Source: Prosthecobacter sp.
Lineage (GTDB): Bacteria; Verrucomicrobiota; Verrucomicrobiia; Verrucomicrobiales; Verrucomicrobiaceae
Direction of reading: 5' to 3'
Length of the DNA stretch: 64,000 bases
Assembly (NCBI RefSeq): GCF_034366625.1
Contig: NZ_JAXMIH010000015.1
Coordinates: 62,001-126,000 of the forward strand
The notes beneath the pieces are model-generated. The model had not been told where the DNA came from, did not search any database, and saw only the letters and a list, made by a program, of their open reading frames with translations. Of this stretch, positions 29,253-45,123 are shown in pieces. The translations under genes were made by a program, and so were the position numbers. Each line of letters opens with the position of its first letter. The first letter of the stretch is position 1.

Positions 29253-32200
29253 ATGCCGGAAAATGCGGAGAAGCAGCACGATCCTGACGCCACTATCCCG
29301 ATGGCGGCTCCGGTGCCGACGGCGAGTGCCAAGGAGTCGCCTGATCTGCCGCTGCCAGAGGAGCTGACCTTGCTGCTTCCGCATGGAAACTACTCCGTGG
29401 AAGGATTTCTCGGCCAAGGCGGCATGGGGGCGGTGTACAAAGGCACACAGGTGCGTTTGCAGCGTCAGGTGGCCATCAAGATCATGCGGCGTGACCAGGG
29501 CAAGGACCATGGCTTCGAGGAGCGCTTCCGCCGCGAGGCGCTGGCGCTGGCACAGCTCAACCATCCAAACATCGTCAATGTCATCGACTACGGCGAGGCG
29601 GGGCCGGATTACCTCTACATCGTGATGGAGTTCGTCGATGGCACCGATCTGGTGGGCGTGATCCGCAGTGGTGAGATGACGCAGGAGACGGCGCTCAAGC
29701 TGCTGCCGCAGATCTGTGACGCGCTGCAGTTCGCGCACGACAACGGCATCGTGCATCGTGACATCAAGCCCGCGAACATCCTGCTCACGCGGGATGGTCG
29801 CATCAAGATGGCGGATTTCGGGCTGGCGAAGCGTTTTGATGTGAACAGTACCTTCCAAACGCAGACCGGCGCCGGCATGGGCACGCCGGACTACGCCGCA
29901 CCGGAGCAGTTTGATCCCAACGGCAACGTGGACCACCGCGCGGACATCTATGAGCTGGGCGTGATGATTTACCAGATGGTCACCGGCCAGCTTCCACGTG
30001 GCGCGTGGAAACCGCCGTCGGAAAAGGCGGATGTGGATACGCACTGGGACAAAATCGTCTCCCACGCCCTGCAAACCGATCCGAGTGACCGCTACGCGAG
30101 CGTCAGCGAGATCAAGACGGACATCAGCAGCATTACGGCAGCGCCGGGCGCGCAAGGCGGTGTGACAGGCCGTGCGACCAGCCGGAAAAGCGGATTCAGC
30201 GGCACGCTCGGAGGCTCCACCACCGTGCTGACACAGGCAGGCGGGCGCAGCGCCACCGTGGTGCAGGCTCCAGCGCCGCCGCGCTCGAAAAAGCCGCTCG
30301 TCTTTGGGCTGGCAGGCGCGTTGGTTTTGTCCGCAGCGGTGGGATTCCTGATGTGGAACAAGGATCGGCCTTCGGTGGAACCAACCGTTCATGTCGTGTC
30401 CAGAACATGGACGCCGCCCGCTCCCACAGTCACTATCGGCACTGAATGGACCGATCTCATCCCGCGCATCAAGCCGGAGCGCGATGCGATTCGCGGTGGC
30501 TGGACCGTGAATGAGAAAGGCCTCACCGCGCAGCGCGCCCAATGGGCCATGTGCAACATCCCGGTGCAAGATCCCGGTACGGACTACGACCTGCGCTACA
30601 AGGTCACTCGGGGTGAAGGCATGCACCTCGCCATGTTCTTTCTCTTCCGCAAAGGCGACACCGGTGGCTTCGCGCCGGTGGACTACGTTGATGCCAGCAA
30701 GCCGGAATTCAGCAATGGCATGCGCATCGCCGGTCTCGAGTCCGTCCAGAACACCATCACCTTCCGACCCGGCGGCGTCGGTGGCTGGCAGAAGGAATGG
30801 CTGCCGCGCGGCAAGACCTGCACCGTGCTTCTTCAAGTGCGGGAAAAGGAAGTGCGCCTGAGCGTGGATGACGTGGAAGCCTTCCGCTGGCAGGCCGACT
30901 GGTCGCAGATACGGCAGCGGCCTAACGCGGAGCATCCCATGTTTAAAGACACCTCCGGCAGCCCCTTCTTCGGCGTCGGCATCTTCGACTGCGAGGCCGT
31001 CTTCCACAGCATCGAGATGCGGCGCATCGGCGAGACTACGGTACCCATTGCCCCGATCGGTGAACCAGGAAGCATCCCGCACCTGCTCACCTCGCCGGAC
31101 TACGAGTGGAGCGCACCGGTCAATCTGGGGCCGCTCGTCAACAGTCCGACCGTTGACCTTGGTCCGATAGTCTCGCCCGATGGACTGCATCTCGTGTTCA
31201 GTTCGAAACGGGAAGGTGACGGCGAGCTTTTTGAATCTCGTCGGTCCAGCGCGGACGCCCCCTGGGGGAAGCCGACGCTCGTGTTTCCGTCCATCGAAGA
31301 TGGCCATCAAGACCAGCCTTGGATGAGCGTGGATGAACTGAGGCTGTTCTATCACGCCACTGCAGGACCGGGGCATCACGGGCGGCTGCCGGAAGGAGAC
31401 GTCTATTTTCGACAACGTGCGGCCAAGGATCAGCCTTGGCAGCCGCCGGTAAACCTTGGATCGGGCATCAACAGTCTGGGGCACGATGTGGCTCCACGGC
31501 TTTCCAATGACGAACGGACGCTCCTTTTCACCTCCATCCGCCCTGGAGGACAAGGTATCTGGGATGTCTGGCGCACTCGCAGGACATCGCGAGAGGCTGC
31601 TTTTGGTCGGGCGGAGAACGTCGGATCGGAACTCAACTCGGCCGGCTCTGATTTCCATGCCGCTTTCGCAGCGGACGACCGGACGCTGCTCTTCCTGCGT
31701 GGTGGTTCGGATATCAAGGTTTGTCGTTTGTTCATGGCCGCGCCGGATGCCAGTGGCCAATACCAAACCACTGCTCTCGATTTTCCTGTGACTGGAAAAT
31801 TGAGTAATCCCTGGCTGTCCGCCGATGGCCGCACCCTGTGGTTCGCCTGGGATGGCCCGGGAAGTCTGGGAGACATGGACTTGTGGGAAATCCGGCGCGT
31901 GCCCAAGGCGAAGAAGAATCCACCCACACCCGCTGCCGCCACGAAGGACACACCATTTGAGAACACCCTCGGCATAAAGTTCGTCCCCGTGCCCATCACC
32001 GGCGGGCCGACGGACGGGAAGCGGGTGCTCTTCAGCGTGTGGGAGACGCGCGTGCAGGACTACGAGGCGTTTGTGAAGGAGACAAAGCGCGAGTGGTTGC
32101 CTGTGATGTTCTCTCAGGCACCCACTCATCCGGCGTTGAATATAAGCTGGGATGATGCGCAGGCTTTTTGTGCATGGTTAACGGAGCGAGAACTGAAAGT

Positions 32201-32726
32201 GGGCCGCTTGCGGGAAAACGAACGGTATCGTCTGCCGAGCGACCATGAATGGAGTTGTGCGGTTGGAATAGGCACACAGGAAAGCCCCACCATGCTGCCG
32301 CTGGCCAAAGACCAGCGCATCAATGATGTCTATACTTGGGGCACCGAATGGCCGCCGCCTGCGGGGGCGGGAAACTTTGCTGGAGAGGAACTGAAGGCGG
32401 TGCTCGCAGCCGGGGAGTATGACTACATCACAACGCCGATCAGCGGCTATAACGATGGCTACAACGAAACAGCACCGGTGGGTTCGTTCCGAGCCAACTC
32501 GCTTGGCCTGCACGATCTCGGCGGCAATGCCTGGGAATGGTGTGAGGACTGGTTTGACAATACCCACGAGGCACGGGTGCTTCGTGGCACGGCGTGGGCA
32601 CACTTTGAGCGTCTGAACCTGCTCTCCTCTAAACGAAGTCGCGGCAGGGTTGGCGTCGCGTTGCCGCCCTTCATCGGTTTCCGCTGTGTGCTGGAATTCT
32701 CCGTTGCATCAGCCGGGAAGCAGTAA
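29253..32726 (+). CDS. Ser/Thr protein kinase fused to PD40 repeats and FGE-sulfatase domain
   Basis: 1157 aa. Cytoplasmic PknB-type kinase at residues about 45-290 with Gly loop LGQGGMGAVYKG, K76 (VAIKIM), HRDIKPAN (H168), DFG near 188 and the P+1 region GTPDYAAPEQF: a complete active site. TM helix at about 350-370 (LVFGLAGALVLSAAVGFLMW). Outside the membrane: a beta-rich domain (about 400-590), PD40/TolB-like repeats (610-880; VSPDGLHLVFSSK, LSNDERTLLFTS), then an FGE/SUMF1 (C-type-lectin-like) domain at 900-1150 (LPSDHEWSCA, GNAWEWCEDWFD). Kinase-FGE fusions occur in other PVC bacteria, including, as I recall, chlamydial Pkn1. The FGE domain may bind rather than oxidise substrate. Confidence 0.92.
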   Translation: MPENAEKQHDPDATIPMAAPVPTASAKESPDLPLPEELTLLLPHGNYSVEGFLGQGGMGAVYKGTQVRLQRQVAIKIMRRDQGKDHGFEERFRREALALAQLNHPNIVNVIDYGEAGPDYLYIVMEFVDGTDLVGVIRSGEMTQETALKLLPQICDALQFAHDNGIVHRDIKPANILLTRDGRIKMADFGLAKRFDVNSTFQTQTGAGMGTPDYAAPEQFDPNGNVDHRADIYELGVMIYQMVTGQLPRGAWKPPSEKADVDTHWDKIVSHALQTDPSDRYASVSEIKTDISSITAAPGAQGGVTGRATSRKSGFSGTLGGSTTVLTQAGGRSATVVQAPAPPRSKKPLVFGLAGALVLSAAVGFLMWNKDRPSVEPTVHVVSRTWTPPAPTVTIGTEWTDLIPRIKPERDAIRGGWTVNEKGLTAQRAQWAMCNIPVQDPGTDYDLRYKVTRGEGMHLAMFFLFRKGDTGGFAPVDYVDASKPEFSNGMRIAGLESVQNTITFRPGGVGGWQKEWLPRGKTCTVLLQVREKEVRLSVDDVEAFRWQADWSQIRQRPNAEHPMFKDTSGSPFFGVGIFDCEAVFHSIEMRRIGETTVPIAPIGEPGSIPHLLTSPDYEWSAPVNLGPLVNSPTVDLGPIVSPDGLHLVFSSKREGDGELFESRRSSADAPWGKPTLVFPSIEDGHQDQPWMSVDELRLFYHATAGPGHHGRLPEGDVYFRQRAAKDQPWQPPVNLGSGINSLGHDVAPRLSNDERTLLFTSIRPGGQGIWDVWRTRRTSREAAFGRAENVGSELNSAGSDFHAAFAADDRTLLFLRGGSDIKVCRLFMAAPDASGQYQTTALDFPVTGKLSNPWLSADGRTLWFAWDGPGSLGDMDLWEIRRVPKAKKNPPTPAAATKDTPFENTLGIKFVPVPITGGPTDGKRVLFSVWETRVQDYEAFVKETKREWLPVMFSQAPTHPALNISWDDAQAFCAWLTERELKVGRLRENERYRLPSDHEWSCAVGIGTQESPTMLPLAKDQRINDVYTWGTEWPPPAGAGNFAGEELKAVLAAGEYDYITTPISGYNDGYNETAPVGSFRANSLGLHDLGGNAWEWCEDWFDNTHEARVLRGTAWAHFERLNLLSSKRSRGRVGVALPPFIGFRCVLEFSVASAGKQ

Positions 32727-36864: not shown

Positions 36865-38478
36865 ATGGCCCTCAGAATGGGAACGCGCGCCACAGCAGCC
36901 ACAGCAAAGACGCCCGCCAGCACTGTGCAGGCCACGTCTGCTGGTGTCTTGTCCGAGTCGCTGCCGGAAGAGATGGTTGAGCGAGTCGAGGCGATGATAA
37001 CCTCGGAAATTCCTGCCGAATTGCAGGCGAGTGCCCGCAGTTTGCTGCGCGCGGTCGCAGCCAAGGTCGCCGTAGCGGAACATTTCGATGCGTTTTGCGG
37101 CCAGGCGTTTTCAAAGCCCGAGTGGGCGGCGGCAGCCAGTCCGCTGATCGCTGAGTTGTTCGACCATGACGAGGACCAACTGGCAGAACTGGCGCGTATT
37201 CCGGACCTTGTGATCGAAATGGGCAGCGGCCAGGCCACGGTGACCTGCATGGTGGCCTCACGTTGGGCCGCCCGCGGCGAGACACATCGTCTGTCCAGAC
37301 TGGCGGAGTCGATTGTGGCTTCACATGCCTCGAAGAACGCCTGCGCGGTCGAGGTGATGCTGGCGCTGGCTGCCACACTGGCGGTGACACGCTTTTCTCG
37401 TGCGGAGCAGCTTTACAATGCCGCCCTGCCACTGGCGGGTGAGGAACACCAAGAAGCGCTGGCTGATGCCAGGCGCTGGCTGGCATCAGGGCGCATTGTG
37501 TGCAGCGCTTCGCAGGAAGAACGTGATTTCTGGGATGTGCGTTTAAGGAAACCCAAATCGGCATGGCTGTGGCAGAGCAAGGAGGAGCGGGAAGCGCTGG
37601 ATACCTTGTCGGAACGTCTGACGAATGGCTTGGAAGGAGTTGATTTGTTCAAGGCGGTCCTTCCTGTATGCTGGTGGGATTTGGCGATGAAGTGCGCACA
37701 GCAGCAGGAAAAACTCGTGCTTGCGATGAAAAAGACGACGGTGGCAAAAGTGGAAACGATTGCTTCTCCGCGCGTGGTGGCTGATTTTGTATCGATGTCT
37801 GAGAAGGCTTCGCTGGAGATTCTCCCGCATCCGCAGGCTGGCCCTTACGCTCGATTTGTTCTGGGTTGGGTTTGTGGTGCCATGGCGATGGCTATCACCG
37901 TGCTGATGCTCCCTTCGGAGGCTATTAATCGAGTACTCAACACTTTCAGAGGAGCAGAATCAAATTCATCGGTGCCACCGGCCGCAGTCGCGGCATCGTT
38001 GATCCCAGGTGAAAGTCGAATCAAATCGCCTGAGGAGAAAGAGATGTGGAGAAAGGAGAATTTGCAGAGAATTGCTTCTGAAATGACTCAGTTTGCTCCT
38101 CAGCAAGCGGTGGCGAAATCAGGAAGCTGGCGGGATAATGAACTGGTTCTTTCCGGACACAGCCAGGAATTGCCGCATGAAAGCCCGCAGTATATGAAAC
38201 TGCTGGTATGGCTGCATCTGGATCCTCCACAGGATGACGAAGTGCGAATGCGTGTTTCCAAACTGCTGTTGGAACGGGTAAAAGCGGATGCTATCACCCT
38301 GTGGGAGGAATTGGTCTATCCAGGCTCGGCTAATGCTGTCGAAATTAGGAGTGCTGCACGTGAAGCGTTGGCCGATGTATCCTTTCAATGGAATGCTGAA
38401 GAAAAGAAGCGACTGGGTGTGATTGCAGGAGAGGAAGATGAGGCCAAAAAAAATGCCGCTATCTCTGTTTCGAAATAA
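36865..38478 (+). CDS. Uncharacterised helical membrane protein
   Basis: 537 aa, family not recognised. The N-terminal 320 residues are Ala/Glu/Arg-rich and helical, with a repeat-like look around 130-215 (FSRAEQLYNAALPLAGEEHQEAL resembles a TPR). One TM helix at about 331-351 (FVLGWVCGAMAMAITVLMLP). The C-terminal 185 residues are charged, with a helical end. Start at the ATG at 36865; ATG at 36877 is an alternative, and no strong ribosome-binding site is visible. It is the first of five co-directional genes leading to btubA, btubB and bklc, and shares with the next gene the plan of a large cytoplasmic part, one TM helix and a tail. Function unknown. Confidence 0.7.
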   Translation: MALRMGTRATAATAKTPASTVQATSAGVLSESLPEEMVERVEAMITSEIPAELQASARSLLRAVAAKVAVAEHFDAFCGQAFSKPEWAAAASPLIAELFDHDEDQLAELARIPDLVIEMGSGQATVTCMVASRWAARGETHRLSRLAESIVASHASKNACAVEVMLALAATLAVTRFSRAEQLYNAALPLAGEEHQEALADARRWLASGRIVCSASQEERDFWDVRLRKPKSAWLWQSKEEREALDTLSERLTNGLEGVDLFKAVLPVCWWDLAMKCAQQQEKLVLAMKKTTVAKVETIASPRVVADFVSMSEKASLEILPHPQAGPYARFVLGWVCGAMAMAITVLMLPSEAINRVLNTFRGAESNSSVPPAAVAASLIPGESRIKSPEEKEMWRKENLQRIASEMTQFAPQQAVAKSGSWRDNELVLSGHSQELPHESPQYMKLLVWLHLDPPQDDEVRMRVSKLLLERVKADAITLWEELVYPGSANAVEIRSAAREALADVSFQWNAEEKKRLGVIAGEEDEAKKNAAISVSK

Positions 38479-38631: not shown

Positions 38632-38802
38632 ACTGGTTTAAAGGCTAAAACCCAGCCCTTCATAAACATGAAATTACTAGATTTTTCAGAATGTTTTTGC
38701 ATTTTTGAGCCACGCCCCTTAGAATTTAGAACATGAACGTCAGGTCGCAGTTCGAATTCTCTGCTCGGATACGACCAGACGGTGTGGATCATTTATTTCT
38801 CT

Positions 38803-41298
38803 ATGATTGAGGAACTTCAGCAATTCGGCAGCCTCTCAGTGGCGCATCGAACCGGTGGTGCACCGGTGGAATTGGCGCGTTCCAAGGATGAGGTGGTTTT
38901 TTTAGCCTTCGACAACAGGATTCGACGTCTGGTGGAACTGCACGTGTTAAGGGGTGGGAACACTTTGGAGGCGGCAATGAAGCGTTCGGCTTTTGACCGT
39001 GCGCGCCAAGCTTCGGAGATTCGCGGGCATGCATTCATGCGTATTTTGGAAGTGGGTGAGGACCAGGGATTGGTCTATTATACCAGCAATCTCAATGATG
39101 GTGAGTTTGTCGAAGACTATGCCAAGAGGCGTGGGGCGGTGGCTCCCGCAACGGCGCTTGCGATGGTTTACCAGCTATTGGACGATCTGCTTCAGTTGCA
39201 GGGGTATCAGCGACTGGTCTCACGCATGCATCTGGATCGTGTGTTAGTCACGACTCTGGAGGACACATTCCTGCAACTCCGTGTGTTTGATTATGGTCTG
39301 TCGCAGATGGATGCGGGAACTGAGGAGCAGAGCGGTGCGCGACTTGTAGTGGAGGCTTGCCGGTTGATTTTTCTCCTGCTTACGGGGCAGTCATATTACG
39401 GTGAAAACCCTGATCGTTTCCCTGCATTGACACAGCTTCCCATGAGCCTGCGCACTGCGGTTAGGACCGCTCTCGCTGATCCTGCCAATGCTCCGGCTTC
39501 CATCGAGAAGTTGCGCGATGACGTGCGCGAGGCATTCAGTGCTCTTTCGAGCAATATCAAGGCCCGCAATTTTCGTAAACACCTCGTGGTGAATGCCTCG
39601 CTGCTGCCCCAGTCGCAACTTCAGGAACTGCTGCTCGAGAACGTGCCGGTCGAAACCATTTTGGGAACACGCTTTCGCGTTGAGGATGCCGATCACACAC
39701 GACGTTATCCCTTCTCGATTCCTGCGATCAACACGAAAGCGGAGCAGCCCGTCACGGTTCATCTGCTGCCTCCGTCGCGAATTGTGGAGAAATCACGCTA
39801 TGAGGCAGTTCCTTTGCAGATGTGGCGCTTCAATCCTGAACGGCACCCCAATATCCTGCGTTCCCTGAGTTTGTGGGAGAGTCCTGACTGGACGTTTCTG
39901 ACCGAGGAGCGTGAGCCAGGCTTTGCGCTAAGCCGCCTTATGGCAGAGCGTATCACGCTGAATCCTGCCGAGGTGACGGTGCTCATGCGCCAGGTTCGTG
40001 CCGGTCTGGATCAGGCGGTGGAGTGTGGTGTGCAGCGTGTGGATTTGCATCCTTCCAACATTCTTTTGCGCGTGGGGAAAAACGGGCCGTTGCTGGCCCG
40101 TGAACTGGAACGATTGATGCAGAAGCGCCTGGATGCCTGGCCTTCCTTTGTGGTGAAGCTGCGTCCGCATATGACGATGCGCAGTCTTTACGAGCCGCTC
40201 CTCGTTGACATGGACATCACAGAGGGGCAGTTGCAGGAAGAGCATCTGCAGGATCGTGATTTTCGGCATCGTTCTTTTGTGATGCTTGCAGCCTATTTGC
40301 TGACTGGAGAACGTCAGAGCGGAGGTGTTCCGCAGTTTTCCGAATCTGTGCCGGATGCAGCCGCCGCGTATGTGCGTGAGTGCATTGAACTGACCCGTCG
40401 CGTTGGGAAAACACCCAGCCCCGGCGAATTCATCGATAAGTTCGAGGGCTTGCTTTCTGCGCCGACGGTTGATCTGGCCACACGCCTGCGTGGTAATGCC
40501 GTGGCGAAGGAAGAAATGGAAAGCGCGGGTTCAGTTTCTGACTATGAGGATGATTGGTCCGCAAGTAATTCGGAGGCCAGCAATTTTGATGACGTCGGAA
40601 TGTCTCCCATCAAGCGCGGTATCAAAACGCATGATTTCAACCCGTTGCTCGATCAGAAGCGTGGAAAGCCCTGGGGGGCTTTGGCTGCTGCTGCGGCGGT
40701 GATTCTGGGCATCGGTGCTTGGATGTTTATGGGAGGTAATGATCCGGCGAAACCGGCGGCGGAGGCGCAATCTTCAGAAGCCGAAGGACCTGCAAACACC
40801 AAAGAGGGCACACAGCAGGCTGACAAAAAGCCGGTTGCTGTGAAACAGCCAACGATTGCCGTCAGTCAAAGCAAACCGATTTCGGATCAATCTGCAGAGA
40901 TCAAGCCTCAGGTGCCATCCTCTGCCGTGGTTCCCCCCAAGCTGTCCGCGGCTGTTGCTGTGGCGGTGCCGAATCCCGACAGGCGGCAGCCTCTTTCGGC
41001 TCCTGTGGCTGAGGTGAAGCCGATAACGAAGGATGCTGTGGAAAAACCCGCGGAAACAGTGGCCGTAAACAATACTGGGGGGCCTGCTGCGGTCAGCCAG
41101 AAGCCCGCCGCTCCAATAACACCTGCGCCTGCCGTCAAGCCTCCCGAAAAAGATCCCATCACCATTCGTCGTGCCATCGTTCCCACCAAGGAAGAGATTG
41201 ACCGTATGAAACAGGGGCACGTCGAAAATAGAACTGGGCAATTGCCGGCCATGTCCACAGCATCGCCTTTGCCGCCGAAACGAAACGAAAAACCGTGA
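38803..41298 (+). CDS. Membrane-anchored protein with two degenerate kinase-like domains
   Basis: 831 aa from the ATG at 38803; a GTG at 38782 would add 7 residues. Kinase-like region 1 (about 10-240): hinge-like VYYTSNLNDGEFVEDYAKRRG, catalytic-loop-like SRMHLDRVLV and DFG-like VFDYGLS, but no Gly loop or HRD. Kinase-like region 2 (about 285-570): VTVHLLPP where VAxK is expected, HPNILRSLSLW, and catalytic loop QRVDLHPSNILL, which keeps Asp and Asn but has no DFG. Both are probably pseudokinases. TM helix at about 625-645 (ALAAAAAVILGIGAWMFM), then a Pro/Ala/Val-rich disordered tail outside the membrane. It lies 265 bp upstream of btubA. Partner and function are unknown. Confidence 0.72.
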   Translation: MIEELQQFGSLSVAHRTGGAPVELARSKDEVVFLAFDNRIRRLVELHVLRGGNTLEAAMKRSAFDRARQASEIRGHAFMRILEVGEDQGLVYYTSNLNDGEFVEDYAKRRGAVAPATALAMVYQLLDDLLQLQGYQRLVSRMHLDRVLVTTLEDTFLQLRVFDYGLSQMDAGTEEQSGARLVVEACRLIFLLLTGQSYYGENPDRFPALTQLPMSLRTAVRTALADPANAPASIEKLRDDVREAFSALSSNIKARNFRKHLVVNASLLPQSQLQELLLENVPVETILGTRFRVEDADHTRRYPFSIPAINTKAEQPVTVHLLPPSRIVEKSRYEAVPLQMWRFNPERHPNILRSLSLWESPDWTFLTEEREPGFALSRLMAERITLNPAEVTVLMRQVRAGLDQAVECGVQRVDLHPSNILLRVGKNGPLLARELERLMQKRLDAWPSFVVKLRPHMTMRSLYEPLLVDMDITEGQLQEEHLQDRDFRHRSFVMLAAYLLTGERQSGGVPQFSESVPDAAAAYVRECIELTRRVGKTPSPGEFIDKFEGLLSAPTVDLATRLRGNAVAKEEMESAGSVSDYEDDWSASNSEASNFDDVGMSPIKRGIKTHDFNPLLDQKRGKPWGALAAAAAVILGIGAWMFMGGNDPAKPAAEAQSSEAEGPANTKEGTQQADKKPVAVKQPTIAVSQSKPISDQSAEIKPQVPSSAVVPPKLSAAVAVAVPNPDRRQPLSAPVAEVKPITKDAVEKPAETVAVNNTGGPAAVSQKPAAPITPAPAVKPPEKDPITIRRAIVPTKEEIDRMKQGHVENRTGQLPAMSTASPLPPKRNEKP

Positions 41299-41563
41299 CC
41301 TTAGCCGTTGCCCGCACTTCGTTATTGCACTTGGATCAACGTGGGATTCCTCACGAAAGAACGGAATTTGCTTGGACTCCCGGCGCACTCACAGGTAAAA
41401 GTACATGTGTGGAGATGAGTGCCGCAAACAACGCCGCATTAATTGCAAAGTCCGGGGCATGCCGGATGCAGGATCGGCGGCTTGGCGTTGCTGGCCGTGT
41501 TTCTACACATCATTGCAGGAAGTAACACATCACATTAGAAACCGCGAAAACTAGGAGAGGCTG
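41299..41563 (+). promoter_or_regulatory. Leader region of the btub operon with strong ribosome-binding site
   Basis: 265 bp before btubA. A strong Shine-Dalgarno sequence AGGAGAGG lies at 41553-41560. No clear sigma70 promoter: the closest is TTGGAC at 41372 and TAAAAG at 41396 with an 18-bp spacer, a poor match. The half-site AATTGCAA is at 41441-41448. A 76-codon ORF (41295-41525) looks non-coding. Confidence 0.45.
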
Positions 41564-42979
41564 ATGAAGGTCAACAACACAATCGTCATTTCAATCGGTC
41601 AGGCGGGCAATCAAATTGCCGCGTCTTTCTGGAAAACCATCTGCCAGGAGCACGGCATTGATCCGCTGACGGGTCAGACCGCGCAAGGGCAGGCTCCTCG
41701 CGGCAACTGGAGCGCGTTCTTCACCAAGCTGGGTGAGTCAACTTCCGGCAGCTATGTGCCGCGTGCCATCATGGTCGATCTTGAGCCCAGCGTGATCGAA
41801 AACGTGAAGGCAACCTCGGGTTCCTTGTTCAATCCGGGAAATCTCATCAGCCGCACCGAAGGCGCGGGGGGCAACTTTGCCGTTGGTTATCTTGGCGCCG
41901 GTCGCGAAGTGCTGCCAGAAGTCATGGGACGGCTCGATTCCGAAATCGACAAGTGTGACAACGTCGGCGGCATCATCGTACTACATGCCACGGGTGGCGG
42001 TTCAGGCTCTGGTTTTGGTGCGCTACTCATTGAATCCGTCAAGGAGAAGTATCCTGAGTTCCCTGTGTTGAGCTGCGCCGTGCTGCCATCTCCGCAGGTT
42101 TCCTCGGTCGTTACCGAACCCTACAACACCGTCTTCACACTCAACACGTTGCGCCGTTCCGCCGACGCCTGCTTGATCTTTGACAACGAGGCGCTGTTCG
42201 AACTCGCGCATCGCAAATGGAACATCGAAAGCCCCACGGTGGATGACTTGAATCTGCTGATTACCGAAGCGCTGGCAGGTTTGACCGCCTCCATGCGTTT
42301 CAGCGGTTTCCTCACCGTCGAAATCAGCCTGCGTGAACTGCTCACCAACCTTGTGCCACAGCCTTCACTGCATTTCCTCATGTGTGCTTTCGCCCCGCTC
42401 ACACCGCCTGACCGTAGCAAGTTCGAGGAAATGGGTGTCGAGGACATGATTCGCAGTTTGTTCGACAACGGTTCCGTCTTTGCCGCCTGTTCGCCCATGG
42501 AGGGGCGCTTCCTTAGCACTGCAGTGCTCTACCGTGGCATCATGGACGACAAGCCGCTCGCGGACGCCGCCCTCGCCGCGATGCGTGAGCAACTTCCTCT
42601 CACCTACTGGATTCCGACGGCTTTCAAAATCGGATACGTCGAGCAGCCCGGCATTTCGCACCGCAAGAGCATGGTGCTTCTCGCCAACAACACCGAGATT
42701 GCCCGTGTACTTGACCGCATTTGCCACAATTTCGACAAGCTCTGGCAACGCAAGGCCTTCGCCAACTGGTACCTCAATGAAGGCATGTCCGAGGAGCAGA
42801 TCAATGCACTTCGTGCTTCAGCCCAGGAACTCATCCAGAGCTATCAAGTCGCCGAGGAAAGCGGAGCCAAGGCCAAGGTGCAGGACAGCTCGGCTGACAT
42901 TCCGCGCGGAAACGCCAGCACGGATGACAGTCGCAGCGGCATGAGTCTGCGTGATCTCGTCGATCGTCGTCGTGCATAA
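41564..42979 (+). CDS. btubA: Bacterial tubulin BtubA
   Basis: 471 aa, full length for BtubA. It is a true tubulin rather than FtsZ: N-terminal GTP-binding loop SIGQAGNQIAASFW, the tubulin signature as G144-GGSGSG-G150 in the T4 loop, NTLRRSADAC and the tubulin-type domain 2 (NLVPQPSLHFLMCAFAPL). BtubA pairs with BtubB to form GTP-dependent protofilaments and small bacterial microtubules in the cytoplasm of Prosthecobacter. A strong ribosome-binding site lies upstream. The C-terminus (MSLRDLVDRRRA) is basic, unlike the acidic tails of eukaryotic tubulins. First gene of btubA-btubB-bklc. Confidence 0.98.
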   Translation: MKVNNTIVISIGQAGNQIAASFWKTICQEHGIDPLTGQTAQGQAPRGNWSAFFTKLGESTSGSYVPRAIMVDLEPSVIENVKATSGSLFNPGNLISRTEGAGGNFAVGYLGAGREVLPEVMGRLDSEIDKCDNVGGIIVLHATGGGSGSGFGALLIESVKEKYPEFPVLSCAVLPSPQVSSVVTEPYNTVFTLNTLRRSADACLIFDNEALFELAHRKWNIESPTVDDLNLLITEALAGLTASMRFSGFLTVEISLRELLTNLVPQPSLHFLMCAFAPLTPPDRSKFEEMGVEDMIRSLFDNGSVFAACSPMEGRFLSTAVLYRGIMDDKPLADAALAAMREQLPLTYWIPTAFKIGYVEQPGISHRKSMVLLANNTEIARVLDRICHNFDKLWQRKAFANWYLNEGMSEEQINALRASAQELIQSYQVAEESGAKAKVQDSSADIPRGNASTDDSRSGMSLRDLVDRRRA

Positions 42980-43027: not shown

Positions 43028-44305
43028 GTGAGAGAGATTCTGAGCATCCATGTCGGACAATGTGGCAACCAGATTGCCGACCGCTTCTGGCGTCTGGTAC
43101 TTCGTGAGCATGGCCTGACTGAGGCTGGAACACTGAAAGAAGGCGGCTCTGCTACTGCTGCGAATGCAAACCTGGAGGTCTTCTTCCATAAAGTCCGTGA
43201 CGGGAAGTACATCCCCCGTGCCATCTTGGTGGACCTCGAACCTGGTGTTATCGCCCGTATCGAAGGCGGCGACATGGCCCAGCTCTTTGATGAAAGCTGC
43301 ATCATCCGCAAAATACCCGGTGCCGCTAACAACTGGGCACGTGGCTACAATGTCGAAGGCGAGCGCATCATCGACCAGATCATGAACGTGATCGACGCTG
43401 CGGTCGAAAAAACCAAGTCTCTGCAGGGCTTCCTCATGACCCATTCCATCGGGGGCGGTTCTGGCTCCGGCTTGGGTTCGCTCATTCTGGAGCGTCTGCG
43501 CCAGGCCTATCCGAAGAAGCGTATCTTCACCTTCTCCGTCGTTCCTTCGCCTCTCATCTCTGACTCCGCCGTCGAGCCCTACAATGCGGTGCTCACCCTC
43601 CAACGCATTCTCGACAATGCCGACGCCGCCGTGCTGCTCGACAACGAGGCGCTCTTCCGCATTGCCAAGTCCAAGCTGCACCGCAGCCCGAACTACATGG
43701 ACCTCAACCACATCATCGCTCTCATCATGAGTTCGGTGACCGCGTCGCTGCGTTTCCCTGGCAAGTTGAACACCGATCTGAGTGAATACGTGACCAACCT
43801 TGTGCCGTTCCCGGGCAATCATTTCCTCACTGCCTCCTTCGCACCCATGCGTGGGCCAGGCCAGGAAGGACAGGTGCGCATCAATTTCCCTGATATTGCT
43901 CGTGAAACTTTCTCTCAGGACAACTTCACTGCCGCCATTGATTGGACCAACGGCGTTTATCTTTCCGCCTGTGCCCTGTTCCGTGGCGATGTGAAGGCCA
44001 AGGAAGTGGAGGAAAACATGGCCGCCATCCGCAAAGGCCTCAATTTTGCCAGTTACGTGCCAACCGGGGTCAAGCTCGGTGTGGCCGAGACTGCGCCCGA
44101 AGGTTTCGCCTCCAGCGGCCTCGCTCTCGTCAATCACACCGGCATTGCCGCTGTGTTTGAGCGCCTCATCAGCAACTTCGACATCATGTTCGACAACCAT
44201 GCTTACACGCACTGGTATGAGAACAATGGGGTTACACGCGACATGATGGCGCACGCACGTAACACCATCGCCAATCTTGCCCAATCTTATCGCGACGCCA
44301 GCTAA
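43028..44305 (+). CDS. btubB: Bacterial tubulin BtubB
   Basis: 425 aa, full length, GTG start. N-terminal loop SIHVGQCGNQIADRFW is almost identical to eukaryotic tubulins. T4 signature G142-GGSGSG-G148 (HSIGGGSGSGLGS). The T7 region keeps the activating N-x-D-x-x-E pattern (KLNTDLSEYVTNLVPFP), as in alpha-tubulin, so it should stimulate GTP hydrolysis on the neighbouring subunit. VEPYNAVLTLQ and FDNHAYTHWYE are further tubulin hallmarks. It forms the heterodimer with BtubA encoded 48 bp upstream. The bklc gene begins 9 nt after its stop. Confidence 0.98.
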   Translation: MREILSIHVGQCGNQIADRFWRLVLREHGLTEAGTLKEGGSATAANANLEVFFHKVRDGKYIPRAILVDLEPGVIARIEGGDMAQLFDESCIIRKIPGAANNWARGYNVEGERIIDQIMNVIDAAVEKTKSLQGFLMTHSIGGGSGSGLGSLILERLRQAYPKKRIFTFSVVPSPLISDSAVEPYNAVLTLQRILDNADAAVLLDNEALFRIAKSKLHRSPNYMDLNHIIALIMSSVTASLRFPGKLNTDLSEYVTNLVPFPGNHFLTASFAPMRGPGQEGQVRINFPDIARETFSQDNFTAAIDWTNGVYLSACALFRGDVKAKEVEENMAAIRKGLNFASYVPTGVKLGVAETAPEGFASSGLALVNHTGIAAVFERLISNFDIMFDNHAYTHWYENNGVTRDMMAHARNTIANLAQSYRDAS

Positions 44306-44313
44306 GCCGGTTT

Positions 44314-45123
44314 TTGCACGGCTCAGGCCCGCCACCAACCTTAACCCCAATTGTGGATACTGCTCTGGAGCGTCAAATCGCCTCCGCCTCCCGCAGCGTT
44401 GAGGAGGCGCGACGGCTTGCGTATCACGATCCGGTCCGGGTTGGAGCACTGGTGGAACAGATCAGTGTCCTGGCCGATTTGCGGCAGAAGGAGGGTGATT
44501 TCCGCAAGGCAGAGTCCCTCTATCGTGAGGCGCTTTTCCGCGCCCAAGAACTGCGCAGACAGGATCCCGACCTGCTCACCGGCATTTATTCGCTCCTGGC
44601 ACATTTGTATGATCGCTGGGGACGCATGGACAAAGCGGCGGAATTCTACGAAAAAGCGCTTTCCATCAGTGTCGATAACGGCTTGGACGACAGCGACAAG
44701 GTTGCCACGATCAAAAACAACCTTGCCATGATCTTCAAGCAGCTCCGTCAGTTCGAAAAGGCGGAGGGCTATTACTGCGAGGCTCTCGAAACCTTCCAGC
44801 GTATTGATGGCGAGCAAAGTTCCCGTGTCGCCTCTGTTTACAACAACCTTGGCGTTCTCTACTACAGCAGCATGGATGTGGATCGCGCCCAGGCCATGCA
44901 CGAGCGGGCGCTGGCCATTCGGCAAAACCTCAACGAAAGCCAGATGGATCCTGCGGATCTGTCCCAGACCTTCATCAACTTGGGGGCGGTGTACAAAGCC
45001 GCTGGCGATTTCCAAAAAGCCGAGGCCTGTGTGGATCGCGCCAAACGCATTCGTGCGGCGATGAACGGCTATCATCCCAATCCACGCCGTTCTGCATCCT
45101 TGCTGATCGACAAGAGCCTGTGA
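44314..45123 (+). CDS. bklc: Bacterial kinesin-light-chain-like TPR protein (BtubC)
   Basis: 269 aa with five TPR units of about 42 residues (GDFRKAESLYREAL, GRMDKAAEFYEKAL, RQFEKAEGYYCEAL, VDRAQAMHERAL, GDFQKAEACVDRA), the period and NNLA/NNLG pattern seen in kinesin light chains. The protein from Prosthecobacter is reported to bind bacterial tubulin polymers and lipid. No ATG fits the start. TTG at 44314 gives the longest frame, 9 nt after the btubB stop, without a ribosome-binding site; GTG at 44353 is an alternative. Expression probably depends on coupling to btubB. It ends 26 bp from the convergent nagZ. Confidence 0.92.
   Translation: MHGSGPPPTLTPIVDTALERQIASASRSVEEARRLAYHDPVRVGALVEQISVLADLRQKEGDFRKAESLYREALFRAQELRRQDPDLLTGIYSLLAHLYDRWGRMDKAAEFYEKALSISVDNGLDDSDKVATIKNNLAMIFKQLRQFEKAEGYYCEALETFQRIDGEQSSRVASVYNNLGVLYYSSMDVDRAQAMHERALAIRQNLNESQMDPADLSQTFINLGAVYKAAGDFQKAEACVDRAKRIRAAMNGYHPNPRRSASLLIDKSL

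Follow-up and report, generated by a model that had tools for sequence, protein, structure and literature searches.

The btubA locus and the gene upstream of it

The window analysed here, a stretch of 64,000 nucleotides from a Prosthecobacter sp., carries the bacterial tubulin genes btubA (41564..42979, + strand), which matches Pfam Tubulin and is a close relative of the 2bto BtubA, and btubB (43028..44305, +), followed by bklc (44353..45123, +), a gene with a GTG start whose TPR protein matches the 5o01 Bklc. Directly upstream of btubA lies a coding sequence (38803..41298, +), here called PKL, for a tandem pseudokinase membrane protein of 831 aa. A first-pass annotation of the same DNA had described it as co-directional with btubA and 265 bp away, and both statements hold with btubA starting at 41564. 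The start of PKL itself is backed by alignment: an in-frame GTG at 38782 lies 21 bases 5' of the ATG at 38803, and the ATG is favoured as it matches the aligned starts across relatives.

When the whole protein was searched, no Pfam or NCBIfam family fitted PKL; the Pfam model PF00069 (Pkinase) covered only residues 346-423, with 28.8 bits compared to a gathering cut-off of 31.7. The kinase part of the protein is under purifying selection, with dN/dS of 0.03-0.09 (0.06-0.09 in pairs with a btub-less genome versus 0.03-0.05 in btub-bearing pairs), and the Pro/Ala tail evolves faster (0.15-0.4). Since the gene is under purifying selection and has orthologues in most of the Verrucomicrobiaceae, its conservation goes beyond chance.

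A conserved block 5' of PKL (38671..38725, +) is promoter-like (TTTGCA-18-TAGAAT) by its match to the consensus, and is conserved across relatives, in part even in a Prosthecobacter clade in which PKL and btub are unlinked. Another conserved promoter-like block (41363..41400, +) emerged from an alignment of the PKL-btubA spacer from 10 relatives; such spacers mostly measure 130-350 bp, with 25 bp in one genome (G011). Judged from these sequences, it is likely that PKL and btubA have separate promoters in Prosthecobacter. The gene on the far side of PKL (36865-38478), for which no Pfam or NCBIfam family was found, is conserved mainly in close relatives, with an additional 30% match in G005, and is not counted among the members of the module discussed below.

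Domain architecture of PKL

Two kinase-like regions in one chain had been proposed from the letters of the sequence, and profile matches and structural superposition both bear this out for domain 1 (38803..39552, +; residues 1-250) and domain 2 (39655..40458, +; residues 285-552). The PKL family profile matched solved kinases at residues 32-177 and ~303-423, and in profile-profile alignments each half matched the active kinases of the same genome with an E-value of 2.6e-11 (local) or better. The AlphaFold model, which comprises residues 1-660 and was made with 28 sequences, reaches a pLDDT of mostly 80-95 over the folded parts. When this model was superposed using VIA-align, residues 1-248 matched PknB/PknA with Z-scores up to 19.2 and residues 285-552 matched Pim1 and S. 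aureus PknB with Z-scores of 18-19. The Foldseek matches include the pseudokinase of Rv3910 (MviN), whose structure 3oun aligns with residues 1-253 at Z 17.6. As modelled, both halves of PKL thus adopt the two-lobed protein kinase-like fold. The genome as a whole contains 55 Pkinase matches, and at 29253-32726 the window encodes a Ser/Thr kinase that looks active and has additional domains.

The active-site residues, as seen in the profile alignment, are eroded in both domains. The Gly loop is missing throughout and the VAIK Lys is replaced by His47 in domain 1 and His320 in domain 2, in agreement with the first-pass annotation. Domain 1 has kept Asp163-Tyr-Gly165 and lost the HRD-Asp; domain 2 has kept the HRD-Asp414 and Asn419 and lacks the DFG. 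The earlier statement that "DFG or HRD" residues are missing is hence correct if one motif per domain was meant and incorrect if both were meant to be absent from each. As Lys is changed to His in both domains and either HRD or DFG is lost, neither domain contains the full catalytic set that an active Hanks-type Ser/Thr kinase combines in a single domain. At the level of sequence the losses are complementary, and the DYG of domain 1 and the HRD-Asp/Asn of domain 2 are both conserved, from which one could speculate that PKL retains phosphotransfer via residues split between its two domains. However, neither domain offers a Gly loop or a VAIK Lys, and we know of no precedent for one active site being completed in cis from two such kinase domains, so that we regard this possibility as very improbable.

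The kinase part is followed by a linker that is disordered in the AlphaFold model (residues 556-624, pLDDT below 50) and that contains the juxtamembrane motif MESAGSVSDYEDDW (40516..40557, +; residues 572-585). Its core, MES[AVM]G[SAT]VSDF, is nearly invariant, with E, S, G, S and D present in 44/44 orthologues, and the flanking residues carry ~1 bit each in the same set. Part of the motif is an acidic-aromatic stretch, SDFDDDW, whose W is found in 30/44 orthologues. The motif also occurs in the PKL of Verrucomicrobium and is recognisable in a 41-44% paralogue, and the pattern GSVSD[FY] has a single occurrence in the genome, namely that in PKL. From its sequence, it looks like a docking or phosphorylation site.

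A single transmembrane helix (40678..40737, +) spans approximately residues 626-645 by hydropathy and residues 624-643 in the model. Since basic residues lie on its N-terminal side, the positive-inside rule suggests that the kinase part is cytoplasmic. The remaining Pro/Ala-rich tail (40738..41295, +), fast evolving and by its sequence predicted to be periplasmic, contains near the C-terminus the conserved element AIVPTKEEIDRMKQG (41173..41217, +), which has the form AIxPTxEEIxxxKQG, is conserved in most orthologues of the family that have a full tail and is absent in Verrucomicrobium. The order of one transmembrane helix and a Pro/Ala tail, as read in the first pass, is thereby supported by hydropathy, sequence and model alike.

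PKL and the btub genes across genomes

In six genera of the Verrucomicrobiaceae, P. vanneervenii included, PKL, btubA, btubB and bklc are contiguous, and the remaining neighbours are almost entirely reshuffled. The contiguity across genera that delimits the btub cluster is thus found for PKL as well, in these six genera and in genus g26 of a second family (f3). There, a single contig of one genome (G177) encodes a third tubulin, PKL and a 63% BtubA one after the other, BtubB-Bklc being found on another of its contigs, and its relative G100 carries a decayed version. The PKL of G177 has 507 aa and no transmembrane helix; it groups among the f3 sequences (moderate support) in a PKL tree that follows the families.

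Bacterial tubulins occur outside the Verrucomicrobiaceae as well. The third tubulin of g26, which lies directly upstream of PKL (L259:3473-4951 in G177; L258:9535-10806 in G100), shows ~33-35% identity to BtubA. In family f4, tubulin-like proteins of ~590-640 aa are encoded at L264:6793-8727 (G092) and, in similar form, in L265, L266, L267 and L268; the G092 protein has an N-terminal Xre-type helix-turn-helix and may therefore combine a tubulin with a DNA-binding domain. In a draft genome (G203, L261:8572-12111), btubA and btubB read as one frame of 912 aa followed by a Bklc-like gene; as the frame crosses a run of N, this is at most a putative fusion.

Within Prosthecobacter, one of two large clades has PKL unlinked from btub. 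The BtubA of one genome (G017) is 100% identical to 2bto, the P. dejongeii protein, and PKL is at another site than btub in this genome; in P. dejongeii, btub is relocated while PKL stayed put. PKL also lies elsewhere in a genome with two btub operons (G014), which fits P. debontii, a species described as having two such operons (PMC3232192). In a further genome (G059), PKL lies 285 bp upstream of btubA and the Bklc is 99.6% identical to 5o01; as the published Bklc comes from P. vanneervenii (PMC5372463), this genome is probably P. vanneervenii. The idea that PKL went unnoticed due to a lack of linkage in all cultured species is consequently wrong.

To quantify co-occurrence, PKL was scored by hand as a full orthologue or as the 32-36% Verrucomicrobium form in 68 Verrucomicrobiaceae genomes; a tubulin in G349, which may be contamination, was left out of the counts. 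PKL and btubAB occur together in 40 genomes and are both missing in 18, with PKL alone in eight and btubAB alone in two; as the genomes are for the most part drafts or metagenome bins, absences and contig ends are uncertain. On a species tree of 59 of the 68 genomes, built from the single gene RpoB, PKL and btub change in the same direction in ~6.6 of 10 independent pairs and in opposite directions in 0.2 (median p 0.03), a correlation of which much is attributable to adjacency, since one deletion can remove both. The correlation is weak in the unlinked Prosthecobacter clade, where 12 genomes have both, three PKL only, one btub only and three neither (Fisher p ~0.07).

Several genomes depart from the common pattern. 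Tubulin-less Verrucomicrobium carries its PKL (32-36%) directly followed by a gene for a TPR protein. Over its full length this protein is the best match to Bklc in that genome, and in a tree it groups with Bklc (100/100) rather than with a generic TPR paralogue; its orthology to Bklc is nevertheless not decisive, since the AU test (p 0.15) does not reject an alternative tree in which it joins the paralogues. One Prosthecobacter genome (G043) retains the tail of PKL and, separated from it by nothing but decayed pieces of btubB (L190:8240-8682), an intact bklc, with the rest of PKL on another contig end, and a second genome (G048) has lost PKL and btubAB and kept an intact bklc (L191:9420-10190) without either gene beside it. 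PKL is kept without btubAB or a clear Bklc in G015, G016 and G029, and btubAB and bklc are present without a PKL orthologue in G019, a genome that is 99% complete. Distant homologues of PKL are common in btub-less families, and almost every genome of the family has an older relative with ~26% identity (G000:C19:18525-19844, L102), which does not contain the linker motif. As PKL is kept and under selection in btub-less genomes, it is not restricted to genomes with tubulin, nor does it depend on tubulin.

Possible roles of PKL and comparison with known systems

With about even confidence, we propose that PKL is the membrane pseudokinase scaffold of a PKL-btubA-btubB-bklc module, with Bklc as the likeliest partner. 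PKL would be a single-pass inner-membrane scaffold of dead kinase domains, its pseudokinase domains and the ESxGSVSDF motif of the cytoplasmic linker could bind partners, and its Pro/Ala tail would extend into the periplasm. Bklc is the most likely of these partners because PKL and bklc stay paired when tubulin is gone; according to published work it in turn binds BtubAB filaments and lipids, and PKL might thus mark or regulate the position of the filaments along the membrane. Having stayed beside btub through much of one family and recurring next to tubulin genes in another, PKL has probably been overlooked as a partner of this cytoskeleton, although it is also kept in relatives without tubulin. 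The pairing in Verrucomicrobium and G043, the shared cluster, the linkage in f3, the invariant motif, the purifying selection and the kinase fold with its dead residues count in favour of such a module, whereas the PKL promoter-like block, the unlinked clade, the exceptions G019, G048 and G015/G016/G029 as well as a btub-linked PKL without a transmembrane helix in f3 count against it.

The main competing explanation is that PKL represents an independent envelope-signalling pseudokinase of the Verrucomicrobiales with no functional link to the tubulin operon, next to which it lies merely because the gene order was inherited. This is a serious, if rather doubtful, alternative: homologues are common where tubulin is absent and their tree agrees with that of the families, the gene has its own promoter-like block and is selected in the absence of btub, G019 does without it, and a paralogue and the older relative reside in the same genomes. 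However, inherited position fits poorly with an adjacency that recurs in a second family and in six genera with changed neighbours, with the persistent PKL-bklc pair of Verrucomicrobium and with the correlated loss of PKL and btub.

The first-pass annotation had imagined a membrane anchor or regulator of bacterial microtubules, to be doubted should the gene be equally present without btubAB. The linkage to btubA in six genera and a second family and the correlated loss are in line with it, but PKL persists without btubAB in Verrucomicrobium and several Prosthecobacter genomes, so that the idea stands in part only. In its narrow form, in which BtubAB filaments are bound directly by PKL and held or controlled by it at the membrane, we consider it quite improbable: the linkage in two families, the membrane topology and tubes running along the membrane (PMC3232192) would fit, yet PKL and its motif persist in tubulin-less genomes and lipid and filament binding are already supplied by Bklc (PMC5372463). 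A partner of the whole module including Bklc is preferable to a direct tubulin anchor because of the PKL genes without btubAB, the bias from joint deletion and the separate promoter-like blocks. A more specific variant, unlikely as it stands, would be that PKL serves as the membrane receptor of Bklc, with the ESxGSVSDF acidic-aromatic motif placed in the TPR groove, and that PKL-Bklc is an older bacterial membrane module, the tubulin genes having been acquired horizontally and inserted into it; if true, bacterial microtubules would have obtained a ready-made membrane adaptor.

In any case, a conserved membrane gene in the btub cluster represents a concrete candidate for filament placement or regulation, and one that is available in P. 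vanneervenii, probably a cultured species. With the PKL-Bklc pair of tubulin-less Verrucomicrobium, the KLC-like protein and tubulin are seen to have separate histories, and this question becomes testable. Pilhofer (2007) reportedly walked out of btub operons. In their available parts, the published accounts of microtubules at the stalk membrane know three btub-operon genes only and leave PKL unmentioned (PMC5372463; PMC3232192; PMC9871819), although an earlier mention of an upstream open reading frame is possible.

Kinesin light chain TPRs bind acidic-aromatic (W- or Y-acidic) motifs. The SDFDDDW stretch of PKL and the KLC-like nature of Bklc may be compared with this system, albeit by analogy only. 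The btubA-btubB-bklc operon of Prosthecobacter is the same locus as the one described here, and the genome matching P. vanneervenii has PKL as the next gene upstream of it. Bklc has been shown to bind lipid vesicles as well as polymers of Btub (PMC5372463), and the tubes in the stalk are oriented parallel to the cytoplasmic membrane (PMC3232192); the verrucomicrobial tubulins group with those of Asgard archaea (PMC13394414). With Ser/Thr kinases of the PknB/PknA type, PKL shares the fold (Z 18-19) and the layout of cytoplasmic kinase, transmembrane helix and periplasmic part, but it differs by its tandem domains, the missing catalytic Lys and the loss of HRD or DFG.

MviN (Rv3910) of M. tuberculosis, a member of the ActPs3 family, resembles PKL in that it is a membrane protein of a bacterium, carries a dead kinase domain and has a functional segment close to the membrane; its pseudokinase recruits FhaA after phosphorylation by PknB (PMC12599244). 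MviN, a transmembrane protein needed for peptidoglycan synthesis, has a single pseudokinase domain and no link to tubulin, whereas PKL combines two kinase-fold domains with one transmembrane helix and gives no Pfam match to multi-pass proteins of the MurJ/MviN type. The conserved Ser-containing linker motif could putatively take the role of the phosphorylated tail of MviN. MviN offers the nearest known mechanism, and PKL may work likewise without being a member of that family.
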